Shown here one piece after another: positions 23,658-62,468 of a stretch of DNA of 64,000 bases; the stretch's first letter is position 1; the number at the start of each line of letters is the position of its first letter. The translations under genes and the position numbers were made by a program. Source of the DNA: Nitrospina sp. (lineage in GTDB: Bacteria > Nitrospinota > Nitrospinia > Nitrospinales > VA-1). Where the stretch lies: the NCBI GenBank assembly GCA_018697205.1, contig JABHTG010000135.1, forward strand, positions 1 through 64,000, in the 5' to 3' direction. Under the pieces are notes generated by a model that ran no database searches, was not told the DNA's origin, and saw only the letters and a list, made by a program, of their open reading frames with translations.

Positions 23658-24422
23658 ATGACCAAGATCATCGCTTTTGTTCGAAGACCTGGGTCTTCTT
23701 TCAACCAAGCTATTTCTGCTAAACCAAAAAATCAGCCAATCAATGTTAAACTTGCCTGCTTGCAACATGACCGATATATTGTGGCTTTAGAAGAAGCCAA
23801 CGCAGAGGTTGTCTCACTCCCAGCTATTAATGAATACCCCGATGCACCTTTTTTAGAAGATACAACCGTTATTCTTGATAATACGGCCGTCGCCTGTCCT
23901 AATAAAGAAAAATCAAGACGTGGTGAAGGTACCAGCATTCACAATAAAATTAAAAAATATAAACCCATAACGACACTCCCTGATTCTGTAACTTTAGATG
24001 GAGGTGATGTGCTAAACACAGAAGAAAAAATCTTTGTAGGAATATCTGACAGGACAAATATGGGAGCTGTAGACGCTCTAGCTAAGTTAACAAAAAAGCC
24101 TGTTGTTCCCATCAAAGTCCTCTTAGGGCTTCATTTGAAAACTTCGGTTACATATTTGGGGAAAAACACCTTGATACTTAATTCATCTTCGATAGATACT
24201 GCAGCACTAAGAGGGTTTAAATGGATTGAAACTGGGAAGGCTAATCCTTACGCTGCTAACTGTCTAGCTATTGGAAATACTGTTTTAATGTCAAAAGCAT
24301 CTAATGCATTGGCAGATAAAATTCACCGTAGGGGATTTAAGGTACTCGAACTAGATATAAGCGAATTTGAAAAAGCTGATGGGGGAATCACCTGTTTGAG
24401 TATAATTTTAAATGAGTCCTGA
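23658..24422 (+). CDS. Dimethylarginine dimethylaminohydrolase-like amidinohydrolase (DDAH)
   Basis: Predicted guanidine-group hydrolase in the pentein fold, 254 residues. DDAH would convert methylated arginine to citrulline and an amine. The catalytic Cys is C246 (GGITCLSI), the His is H159 (LLGLHLKTS), and the acidic substrate-binding residues lie in FLEDT (66-69) and DGGDVL (114-119). The order FLEDT, DGGDV, LHLKTSV, GGITCLS matches DDAH more closely than arginine deiminase, which is much longer. The substrate in this organism is unknown. It follows the GGCT-like gene by 8 nt. Confidence 0.85.
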   Translation: MTKIIAFVRRPGSSFNQAISAKPKNQPINVKLACLQHDRYIVALEEANAEVVSLPAINEYPDAPFLEDTTVILDNTAVACPNKEKSRRGEGTSIHNKIKKYKPITTLPDSVTLDGGDVLNTEEKIFVGISDRTNMGAVDALAKLTKKPVVPIKVLLGLHLKTSVTYLGKNTLILNSSSIDTAALRGFKWIETGKANPYAANCLAIGNTVLMSKASNALADKIHRRGFKVLELDISEFEKADGGITCLSIILNES

Positions 24423-24443: not shown

Positions 24444-24713
24444 TTATAGGTCATTATTCTTTAAAATACTATCCAGGCTTTCAAGAAATAACTCTTTCTT
24501 TTGATCATCAAATTTAAAAACTTGATCAAATTCACTTTTAATCACCTCAGTTAGGGGACTGCCCTCTTCAAACATTTTAGTTTTCTTTGCTTCTTCCGAA
24601 AACTCAACGTTAATAGAAGCATATTCATTATACTTTTGAGATAAATTATTTTGCCTTTGGGAGTCTGGTGCTGTAACAAAAGATTTAGTTGCATTGCTAA
24701 CTGGACTTACCAT
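24444..24713 (-). CDS. 89-residue unknown protein under a sigma54 promoter
   Basis: A small acidic, largely helical protein with no cysteine, no signal peptide and no recognised domain. The N-terminal third is polar and Ser/Gln/Asn-rich. The middle reads INVEFSEEAKKTKMFEEG and the C-terminus FDDQKKELFLESLDSILKNN. A phrase like V-x-F/L-S-x-EA-K is seen in many flagellar regulators and adaptors, but the FlgM C-terminus is not evident. GGAG lies 7 nt before the ATG. A strong sigma54 promoter lies 50 nt upstream (24763-24778), so a flagellar or motility-linked role is a reasonable guess. Confidence 0.65.
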   Translation of the reverse strand: MVSPVSNATKSFVTAPDSQRQNNLSQKYNEYASINVEFSEEAKKTKMFEEGSPLTEVIKSEFDQVFKFDDQKKELFLESLDSILKNNDL

Positions 24714-24762
24714 TGCTTTCTCCGGTTCGGTTAAATTTTTCCTTATACAATCTCCTTAAGAT

Positions 24763-24778
24763 AGCAAGTTTTGTGCCT
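24763..24778 (-). promoter_or_regulatory. Sigma54 (-24/-12) promoter for the 89-residue protein
   Basis: On the minus strand the sequence is AGGCACAAAACTTGCT, matching TGGCAC-N5-TTGCT at every defined base except the first. GG and GC are separated by exactly 10 nt, as sigma54 requires. Transcription should start near 24752, about 40 nt before the ATG at 24713. No TGTCA dyad was found upstream of this copy. Confidence 0.7.
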
Positions 24779-24880
24779 AATGTTAAACAAAACAAACTCT
24801 TTATTTTTAATGCTTTACATTTATTTTATTATATTTCTTTCAGGCTTATTTTTCCTAACAGGAAACGTTTGCCTAGTTAT

Positions 24881-26017
24881 TCAATCTGGTAGATCCTGAA
24901 GAAGAGGTTTGCCGTATCCTACTAGTTCCACATACCCCTTACCTTTAACTAGATCCCCACCAACATTACCTTCTATTGAAACGCTCCCTTCCCAGTATGA
25001 TGCAGAAATAGACCTTAGGCCATAAAGCTCTTGATCAAGCAAATCGGGTGATAATTTCACCTTAATTCTAAAACTAGGTAATTCCAGCTCCCAACCCGAA
25101 GGATAGATAATACCTGACCGCTTACTCTTCCATTCAGTTAAAGGTCTCACGATAAATTCATTACGCTTTAAATGCCGAGATACTCCATCTGCTGTAACCA
25201 AAGTACCACTAGAAAAAGAATCTACCCCCCCCGCTTTAAGGCGCAACTGATACAACATCAACTCTGTCTGATCATCAAGCTTTAATGAAAACCAATCCCA
25301 ACCAGCAAGTTCATTATTAAGCTGGTTACTTGAGTATTCATGATCCATCCAGCTTGTGCCAAGAACTTTATAAGTTTTTCCCTCTATAAATATGGTTCCA
25401 CTAGTTTTCATACGTGTATATGAAAAGTAGTGAGAAGCATTTCCTGGGTCACGCCCTTTTTTACTAATTCCATTTTGTCCATGAAAAACTAAGTTCTTCA
25501 TCGGAACTAATTGCAATTTAATTCCCGTCCCTACTTCAACTGCTTCAATCAAGTGTTTTTCATCCTCGCTCTTAAGAGACCAATCTTCATTCCAAACCAT
25601 TAATCGTTCAGAGTCAGCACCTGCATTACCAACCCCCTTGCGGTTAATCCGCTCAAAGTAATGAAACTTTTTACCGTCTATATCAGTTAATGTCATATGA
25701 GCAAAATAAATATGGTCCACCTTCCACTTGGATGAGTTAATTTTTCTATCTGTGGTATCAAGAGCTACACGAAAAAATGTAAGCTGATAGCCAAAGGGTC
25801 GAGAGGTTCCCACCTCTTCAAGGTTTCCGGTGTAGTACCACCATTCGATTCTAAAATCATCATGAGAATTAAAATCTCTTGGGAACCTATAGGTATAGCC
25901 GGGAAGAGCCTGACTAAAGACTTCTGACTCTTGAGCATTAGCAACCCTAAAGTCTGATATCCTCAGACTCATCATCAAAGTTAGGGAAAGAAAAAATATA
26001 ATAGTAAATCTAACCAT
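24881..26017 (-). CDS. Secreted CrtC/AttH-type lipocalin-like protein (COG5621 family)
   Basis: The protein has 378 residues with a signal peptide (about residues 1-28). The diagnostic start of the family is YRFPRDF followed by FRIEWWYYTGNLE. Later conserved pieces are FGYQLTFFRVALD, YFAHMTLTD, GTSWMDHEYSSNQL and GWDWFSLKLDD. The family includes hydroxyneurosporene synthase (CrtC) and many uncharacterised predicted secreted hydrolases or hydratases. No carotenoid genes are nearby, so a carotenoid role is not supported here. It stands alone, convergent to nothing within the neighbouring genes. Confidence 0.85.
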   Translation of the reverse strand: MVRFTIIFFLSLTLMMSLRISDFRVANAQESEVFSQALPGYTYRFPRDFNSHDDFRIEWWYYTGNLEEVGTSRPFGYQLTFFRVALDTTDRKINSSKWKVDHIYFAHMTLTDIDGKKFHYFERINRKGVGNAGADSERLMVWNEDWSLKSEDEKHLIEAVEVGTGIKLQLVPMKNLVFHGQNGISKKGRDPGNASHYFSYTRMKTSGTIFIEGKTYKVLGTSWMDHEYSSNQLNNELAGWDWFSLKLDDQTELMLYQLRLKAGGVDSFSSGTLVTADGVSRHLKRNEFIVRPLTEWKSKRSGIIYPSGWELELPSFRIKVKLSPDLLDQELYGLRSISASYWEGSVSIEGNVGGDLVKGKGYVELVGYGKPLLQDLPD

Positions 26018-56979: not shown

Positions 56980-56995
56980 TGGTATAAAAATTGCT
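56980..56995 (+). promoter_or_regulatory. Sigma54 promoter of the AMIN/TPR-kinase-regulator operon
   Basis: TGGTATAAAAATTGCT matches TGGYAYRNNNNTTGCW at every position. GG (56981-56982) and GC (56993-56994) have the required 10-nt spacing. Transcription should start near 57006, 36 nt before the ATG at 57042. Confidence 0.8.
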
Positions 56996-59696: not shown

Positions 59697-60917
59697 ATGA
59701 AAAACCCTCGTTCAGAAAAAAGTAGCCCTAGAGAAATTGCGATTCTTAATCAAGCATTTCAATCCTTCAATGAAGCTACGCAACAATTACAAAACTCTTA
59801 TGATGTACTTAATGAGGCTTTAGAAACAAACAAAAACTACCTGCATAATATTATGGAAAGTCTTCCCACAGGTGTAATCGTAGTTGATCAAAATAATGCT
59901 ATTAATACATTCAATAAAACTGCAGGCGCAATAACAGGCCTCGACCCAGAAACTTGCATTAACAAACAACTAAGTGAAGTCTTCACAACAGACCTTTTTG
60001 AAAAAATAGTTGGTCGAACAACCAAAGAAAAACAAAAGTCTCCCGTGATTGAAAGAGAAATCGAAACTCCTCATCATGGTAATATTTATACGCGTATTTC
60101 AACCTCTCCTGTTTTAGATAAAAAAAATAAGCAGATTGGGACAGTTCTCAATATAGAGGACATAACAGAGTTGCGCCGTCTGGGAGAAGAAGCCCAGCGC
60201 AACCGTCGCCTTAGAGCAACCGGAGAAATGGCCGCGGGTATAGCCCACGAAATAAGAAATCCATTGGGAAGCATTGAATTATTTTCATCACTACTTAAAA
60301 AAGATCTTAGTGAGGACCCCGATAAAAAACAAATTGTTGAACATATATCGGCCAGCGTGAAAAACATGGATAGAATTATTTCAAGTTTACTACTATTTGC
60401 AAAGTCTCCTCGACCGTCCCAACAACTATGCGATCTAAATGAACTGCTTAAAGACTTACTCAAAGACTCTTCTGCTATCCTGATCCCTCAAGGAATTAAC
60501 ACTATTTTTAGCTTTAGCGATAATGCCATTGCCAATGGCGACTCACATCTTCTTAAACAAGTTTTTATAAATCTCATCCGAAATGCTATCCAGGCTATGC
60601 CTGAGGGCGGTGACCTGACAATCACAACACAAAAAAGTCCCGACTTTGAAAAATCATCTGATCAACTTAACTATAGTCGACAATTTATAAAGGTTACTTT
60701 TGCTGATCAAGGTAAAGGTATTTCGGAGGAAAATCGAGCGAGTATTTTTAATCCTTTTTTTACAACAAAAGACCATGGAACGGGACTCGGCTTATCAATT
60801 TCTCATAACATTATAAAAGCTCACCAGGGGACTATTGATGTAGAAAACAAAGCGGGCAAAGGAGCCCAATTTATTCTTAAAATTCCATGTTGGGACCACG
60901 ACCTTGACAACAAATAA
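59697..60917 (+). CDS. PAS-domain sensor histidine kinase (FlrB/AtoS/NtrB-type)
   Basis: The protein has 406 residues with no transmembrane helix, so it is cytoplasmic. A coiled-coil N-terminus (about 10-50) precedes a PAS domain (about 50-160: SLPTGVIVVDQNNAINTFNKTAG). The phospho-acceptor is H184 in MAAGIAHEIRNPLGS. The ATPase domain has the N-box QVFINLIRNAIQAMPEG, G1 FADQGKGIS, and F/G2 FTTKDHGTGLGLSIS. It ends 14 nt inside the start of the response-regulator gene. The genetic setting next to flagellar genes suggests an FlrB/FleS-like role. Confidence 0.92.
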   Translation: MKNPRSEKSSPREIAILNQAFQSFNEATQQLQNSYDVLNEALETNKNYLHNIMESLPTGVIVVDQNNAINTFNKTAGAITGLDPETCINKQLSEVFTTDLFEKIVGRTTKEKQKSPVIEREIETPHHGNIYTRISTSPVLDKKNKQIGTVLNIEDITELRRLGEEAQRNRRLRATGEMAAGIAHEIRNPLGSIELFSSLLKKDLSEDPDKKQIVEHISASVKNMDRIISSLLLFAKSPRPSQQLCDLNELLKDLLKDSSAILIPQGINTIFSFSDNAIANGDSHLLKQVFINLIRNAIQAMPEGGDLTITTQKSPDFEKSSDQLNYSRQFIKVTFADQGKGISEENRASIFNPFFTTKDHGTGLGLSISHNIIKAHQGTIDVENKAGKGAQFILKIPCWDHDLDNK

Positions 60918-62280
60918 TTCTTCTAAAAATATTTTAGTCGTCGATGATGAAGTCGAAATGAGAATAGCACTCGAAACAACCCTAAAAAGGGAAGGCCATA
61001 GCATTACCATAGCTGAAAATGGCAAACAAGCCTTAGAAAAGTTGGAGGAAGATACTTTTGATTTAGTATTGACAGACGTAAAAATGCCCAAAATTAATGG
61101 CGTCGAGTTATTAAAGGCTCTTAAAAAAAAATCATCGCAAACAGTAGCCATTATGATGACGGCTTATGGTGATATTGATAATGCTGTTGAAACTATTAAG
61201 GCAGGCGCTTTTGATTATCTACTCAAACCATTTTCTGCAGAAATTCTTATAGCTACTGTAAATAGAGCTTTTATGGACAGTACTTCTACAAAAAACGTAC
61301 TTGTTCACCCTACACCTACAATAAGTAAAACTCCTAATCGTGAACGACGAATAATAACTCAAAATAAGAAAATGCTGGAGCTAATTAAGTTTGTTGAAAA
61401 TATTTCATACAGCAAGTCAACCGTCCTAATTATGGGCGATACCGGAACTGGCAAAGAAATGTTTGCTCGCTATATTCACCAGATGAGCCCCCGTGCACAA
61501 AAACCATTTATGGCAGTAAATTGTGCTGCTCTTCCTGAAGGTCTTCTTGAAACCGAATTATTTGGACACGAAAAAGGAGCTTTTACTGGAGCAATAGAAC
61601 GCAAAGATGGGAAATTTGAACTAGCTAATAAAGGAACTTTGTTGCTGGATGAGGTCACTGAAATGAGCTTACCCCTTCAAGCTAAATTATTACGCGTTTT
61701 ACAAGAACATGAAATAGACAAAGTTGGCGGGAGCAAGTCGGTCCCTGTTGATGTCCGTGTTGTCGCCACAACGAACAGAGACATCAAAGAGCGCATCAGA
61801 GAAAATCAATTCCGCGAAGATTTATATTATCGCTTGAATGTAATTCCCCTGAAACTAATTCCTCTAAGAGATAGAATTGATGACATTCAGACGCTAGCCG
61901 AGCATTTTATCGAAAAACACACTGCTGATCTAAATAAAAATATCTCCCACATTGCGACAGAAACTATCGAACTACTTAAAAAATACAGCTGGCCCGGCAA
62001 CGTGCGAGAACTAGAAAATATAATTGAAAGAGCAACTCTCATGTGCCATGAAAATACTCTACTCCCCTCTCACCTTTTCTTTGATGAAGAAGAAATAAAA
62101 ATCGAAACCCGTCCTCTCGAAACATTTAAAGGAACAATACACGATATGGAAAAAGAACTTATCACCCAAACTCTAGAAGAGGTCAATGGAAACAAAACAA
62201 AAGCTGCCGAAAATTTAGGCATCAGCATACGTACTCTTCGCAATAAACTAGCCTCTTACAAGAACCCCTTAAAAAGCTAA
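60904..62280 (+). CDS. Sigma54-activating response regulator (FlrC/FleR/NtrC-type)
   Basis: The protein has 458 residues. The receiver domain (about 8-120) has the acidic pair D14-D15 and phospho-acceptor D58 (LVLTDVKMP). The AAA+ domain carries Walker A GDTGTGKE (178-185), the sigma54-contact loop GAFTGA at 225-230, and Walker B LLLDEVTEM. The C-terminal Fis-type helix-turn-helix (about 415-455) reads GNKTKAAENLGISIRTLRNKL. The start is TTG overlapping the kinase gene by 14 nt; the next Met would delete the receiver. It is expected to bind the TGTCA-N6-TGACA dyads at 56845 and 62304 and activate the promoters at 56980 and 62453. Confidence 0.94.
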   Translation: MTTNNSSKNILVVDDEVEMRIALETTLKREGHSITIAENGKQALEKLEEDTFDLVLTDVKMPKINGVELLKALKKKSSQTVAIMMTAYGDIDNAVETIKAGAFDYLLKPFSAEILIATVNRAFMDSTSTKNVLVHPTPTISKTPNRERRIITQNKKMLELIKFVENISYSKSTVLIMGDTGTGKEMFARYIHQMSPRAQKPFMAVNCAALPEGLLETELFGHEKGAFTGAIERKDGKFELANKGTLLLDEVTEMSLPLQAKLLRVLQEHEIDKVGGSKSVPVDVRVVATTNRDIKERIRENQFREDLYYRLNVIPLKLIPLRDRIDDIQTLAEHFIEKHTADLNKNISHIATETIELLKKYSWPGNVRELENIIERATLMCHENTLLPSHLFFDEEEIKIETRPLETFKGTIHDMEKELITQTLEEVNGNKTKAAENLGISIRTLRNKLASYKNPLKS

Positions 62281-62452: not shown

Positions 62453-62468
62453 TGGTATGGTTATTGCT
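62453..62468 (+). promoter_or_regulatory. Sigma54 promoter of the flgC-fliF operon
   Basis: TGGTATGGTTATTGCT matches TGGYAYRNNNNTTGCW at every position, with GG at 62454-62455 and GC at 62466-62467 spaced by 10 nt. Transcription should start near 62479, about 64 nt before the flgC ATG. Confidence 0.82.

Follow-up and report, generated by a model that had tools for sequence, protein, structure and literature searches.

A conserved sigma54-type promoter precedes a genus-restricted orphan gene in Nitrospinaceae

A small orphan gene in a Nitrospinaceae genome is preceded by a -24/-12 element that is conserved in its relatives, and we regard this element as, with little doubt, a genuine promoter of the sigma54 type. 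The encoded protein is lineage-specific, and on balance we lean towards an accessory or regulatory role, most probably in the flagellar assembly programme. The window analysed here (64,000 nucleotides) is contig C41 of G000, a 2.48-Mb draft genome that is 85% complete and whose nearest relatives are the Nitrospinaceae genomes AH-679-O07, SI034_bin134, and PW1.metabat2.53. The Nitrospinaceae are a group of marine nitrite oxidisers, and a limited literature search found no published account of sigma54 control or sigma54 regulons in the Nitrospinota or the Nitrospinaceae. With this finding, the sigma54 regulon of the family gains an orphan gene whose promoter is conserved; if the flagellar link is true, the gene would also represent a clade-specific regulator added onto a conserved machine.

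The promoter, AGGCACAAAACTTGCT, lies on the minus strand at positions 24763..24778 and reads AGGCAC-AAAAC-TTGCT, with the -24 GG and -12 GC elements both present at the spacing that defines a sigma54 promoter (an exact 5-nt spacer). The ATG of the orphan gene (24713) follows 49 nt downstream, and transcription is predicted from the promoter geometry to start at 24752 on the same strand, 12 nt after the -12 C, which would give a 39-nt leader. The gene itself (24444..24713, minus strand) encodes 89 amino acids (87 in relatives) and carries a GGAG ribosome-binding site 6 nt before its ATG (24720..24723, minus strand), where CGGAGAAA is kept in all four orthologues. The earlier note had thus described the site correctly in its sequence, strand, coordinates, and spacer, as well as in its position ahead of a small gene with its own GGAG. 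Its match of "15 of 16" counted the five free N positions; the true figure is 10 of the 11 specified bases of TGGCAC-N5-TTGCT.

Taken alone, the sequence match is weak, one such match per 64 kb being near chance: the window holds three matches with at most one mismatch to TGGCACN5TTGCW, against an expectation of 1.33 ± 1.21. A relaxed scan of the window returned only three intergenic matches, namely the orphan site and those of an AMIN/TPR gene (57042) and of flgC (62543), and exactly these three intergenic sites were matched by DGGYAYN5TTGCW (0.65 ± 0.77 expected).

It is conservation in the relatives that decides, and because of it the site is accepted as more than chance. Orthologues of the orphan gene are present in G001, G004, and G007, with 63-74% identity to the window protein and the same flanking genes in each: upstream, a 378-aa CrtC/Lipocalin_9 protein (24881..26017, minus strand), and convergently, a 254-aa arginine deiminase/DDAH-like protein (23658..24422, plus strand), both assigned by Pfam. 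Judged by its substitution pattern, the orphan gene is under purifying selection, with a dN/dS of ~0.16-0.4 in five of the six orthologue pairs; the remaining one (G001-G007) is too nearly identical to be informative. An alignment of the four orthologous promoters (G000, G001, G004, and G007), each read in the direction of its gene, shows no change in GGCA, in TTGCT, or in the spacing between them, the sites being AGGCACAAAACTTGCT once, TGGCATAGGATTTGCT once, and GGGCATAGAATTTGCT twice. The intergenic background outside the site is invariant at 82 of 153 columns (54%), or at 49% within 40 columns, and the chance of finding all nine core positions invariant is ~0.002-0.004 with the columns treated as independent. 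Furthermore, when the same nine-position pattern was moved elsewhere in the spacer, no other placement was invariant.

The genome possesses the corresponding machinery. RpoN is encoded at G000:C31:108587, and pattern searches across G000 returned 20 matches to the exact core GGCAYN5TTGCT versus five for a reversed control, and 174 versus 68 for the full motif with one mismatch allowed. Exact-core sites stand before fliK, fliL, urtA, gltB, and a 142-aa orphan gene (urtA and gltB were named by sequence rather than through a family search). The promoter of the flgC-fliF-fliG operon, TGGTATGGTTATTGCT (62453..62468, plus strand), provides a comparison; since other members of the genus (G001, G002, and G007) have kept this site as well, sigma54 control of flagellar genes in G000 is well supported. 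The proposal that the sigma54 regulon has a hitherto unrecognised member in the small gene is likewise well supported, because its promoter is conserved and both RpoN and activators are encoded in the genome.

Two further sites came to light in the genome-wide search. The 142-aa orphan (G000:C119, L201 2513-2941), which has no Pfam match, begins 78 nt after the exact sigma54 consensus TGGCACAAGTCTTGCT. An identical sigma54 15-mer, GGCATGTTAATTGCT, occurs at G000:C31:39022-39036, before gltB, and at G000:C121:460-474, the latter copy lying near the contig end, with a sigma54 activator domain about 0.8 kb away.

From these elements we infer the following course of events. RNA polymerase-sigma54 would bind the -24/-12 element upstream of the orphan gene and wait for an enhancer-binding ATPase to open the promoter, after which a single small gene would be transcribed to yield a protein of 87-89 residues with two helices at its C-terminal end and an N-terminal half that is probably disordered. 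The ATPase is possibly the FleR/NtrC-type response regulator with a sigma54 interaction domain that Pfam identifies in the window (60904..62280, plus strand), one candidate among at least six strong enhancer-binding activators encoded in G000. In the FleSR/FlgSR-type hierarchy (PMC7064773), polar flagellar genes are served by sigma54 promoters of the -24/-12 type. The window resembles that system in its promoter element, in RpoN, and in a FleS/FleR-type kinase and activator adjoining flgC, and differs from it in that about 36 kb separate the orphan promoter from the fleSR/flgC operon and in that the activator is only a candidate. A by-eye comparison revealed no evident upstream motif in common with the flagellar promoters. 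Within the window, TGGTATAAAAATTGCT at 56980-56995 stands 46 nt ahead of the 863-aa AMIN/TPR gene, which the FleS/FleR-type pair follows; this position suggests that the regulator operon, too, is under sigma54 control.

The flagellar reading draws on the distribution of the gene. Our collection includes the four gene-bearing genus members (G000, G001, G004, and G007) and four others (G002, G003, G005, and G006), and the orphan-gene locus is assembled in the former four and in G006. All four gene-bearing genomes keep flhA or other flagellar genes. In G006 (95% complete), both neighbours are present, while the interval between them is occupied by unrelated genes and lacks a sigma54 site; neither flhA nor flgC was found in G006 or G005, and both of these members seem to have become non-flagellated. 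Across the genus genomes with an assembled locus, the gene and flagellar genes occur together in four and are co-absent in one. The association with flagellar genes that the earlier note had proposed looking for in relatives holds to this extent, but it is a single evolutionary contrast and not proof, and no homologue of the orphan gene was found in flagellated relatives outside the genus. The RpoN tree places G006 outside the clade formed by G000, G001, G003, G004, and G007, so that gain in that clade and loss together with the flagella are equally good fits. Flagellar genes are retained in G002 and G003, and neither the orphan gene nor its neighbours were found in these drafts.

The flagellar locus of the two apparently non-flagellated members has collapsed. 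On G006:C80 (L200 6333-8386) and G005:C56 (L207 151-2195), the AMIN/TPR gene has been shortened to about 330 aa and adjoins fliG with almost nothing in between; fleS, fleR, flgC, and fliF are gone, and fliG is intact and full length. Used as a flagellar marker, fliG had made G006 seem flagellated, a view that was abandoned once the locus was read as a collapsed operon.

Because urtA and gltB, too, have sigma54 sites ahead of them, the orphan gene may instead have a nitrogen role: when nitrogen is limiting, an NtrC-type activator would switch on the orphan protein along with urtA and gltB, the protein acting as a small regulator or enzyme inhibitor. The orphan gene shares the same sigma54 core with these genes in G000, and its neighbour encodes an arginine deiminase/DDAH-like enzyme. 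However, G006 does not have the gene while retaining RpoN, several activators, and the deiminase neighbour, and it is without most of the flagellar genes sought. Furthermore, no known nitrogen-regulator family was matched, and a non-systematic look identified no NtrC-type site upstream of the orphan gene. We consider this nitrogen role rather unlikely.

The protein itself is restricted to one Nitrospinaceae genus among the genomes searched. Searching 191 other genomes, from close and distant relatives, with a profile built from the four proteins gave no credible match, and viral contigs, phages, plasmids, and the PDB held no homologue. Searches of Pfam, NCBIfam, PHROG, and the PDB gave no match of any weight; an NCBIfam LegC2/C7 match (19.7 bits versus a cut-off of 350, in one of the four members) was dismissed as composition. 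The predicted structure is poor (mean pLDDT 59), its best parts being helices at residues 53-66 and 70-86, and the low-confidence N-terminal half is probably disordered. A Foldseek search with this model, which is too uncertain for searching, returned zero matches.

The suggestion of a flagellar adaptor or an anti-sigma-like factor fares unevenly against these results: a flagellar link is plausible through the co-absence in G006, but the protein has no homology to FlgM or to a known family, and a FlgM is encoded elsewhere. That the protein is an anti-sigma28 factor of the FlgM kind, highly diverged and exported by the flagellum, is improbable. The orphan protein does resemble FlgM (PF04316) in size (about 90 residues), in its flexible-looking N-terminal half and helical C-terminal part, and in a similar S-x-x-A-K motif (I/V-x-x-S-x-x-A-K), and there is a weak HMM excess, with 2-30 of 500 shuffles scoring equally high. 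It has, however, no significant sequence or profile match to PF04316, hhalign against 21 Nitrospinota FlgM proteins gave a probability of 0.3% (E 0.18, 21 columns), and the canonical FlgM of the genome lies at G000:C84. On its sequence, the orphan protein is not FlgM and should not be filed as such. A bolder form of the flagellar reading, which we think has only a slim chance of being correct, is that a genus-specific protein was recruited to the flagellar hierarchy via its own sigma54 promoter, as a new assembly checkpoint or as an anti-sigma factor unrelated to FlgM.

Several FlgM-like proteins were encountered along the way. Weak FlgM matches (profile positions 13-50) in many relatives, considered as distant orthologues, are unrelated and apparently belong to a TPR-like family. 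Most family relatives possess a second FlgM-like protein (typically MNEL..., with the C-terminus KMVQKIRE.KN; L079, L145-L158), shown within the genus only by G003; this second family (e.g., G003:C162, L145-L158) was rejected as orphan kin, having no sigma54 site upstream and no resemblance. Finally, all eight genus members retain a FlgM-domain protein with a MEIPGN/MDIPGS start (G006 L160 1894-2220; G005 L163 1851-2180), and it may serve a non-flagellar sigma factor because two of these members are without flhA and flgC.

That the motif arose by chance, with transcription of the orphan gene coming from a sigma70 promoter or reading through out of the lipocalin gene, is also improbable. In its favour, the match by sequence alone is close to chance, a sigma70-like pair (TTAACA-N17-TATCTT, 9 of 12) overlaps the sigma54 site in the window, and no intrinsic terminator was called after the upstream gene, but the sigma54 core and spacing are conserved in four genomes, and the sigma70-like pair is not kept in the orthologues in the same four-genome promoter alignment. 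The alignment also revealed conserved blocks upstream of the promoter, and RNA folding a hairpin just 3' of the upstream gene (GGC...TTTCC-TGTTA-GGAAA...GCC; 24841..24875, minus strand; z = -2.8). This hairpin has no T tract, is partially conserved among the orthologues, and is a candidate transcript-end structure or activator site.
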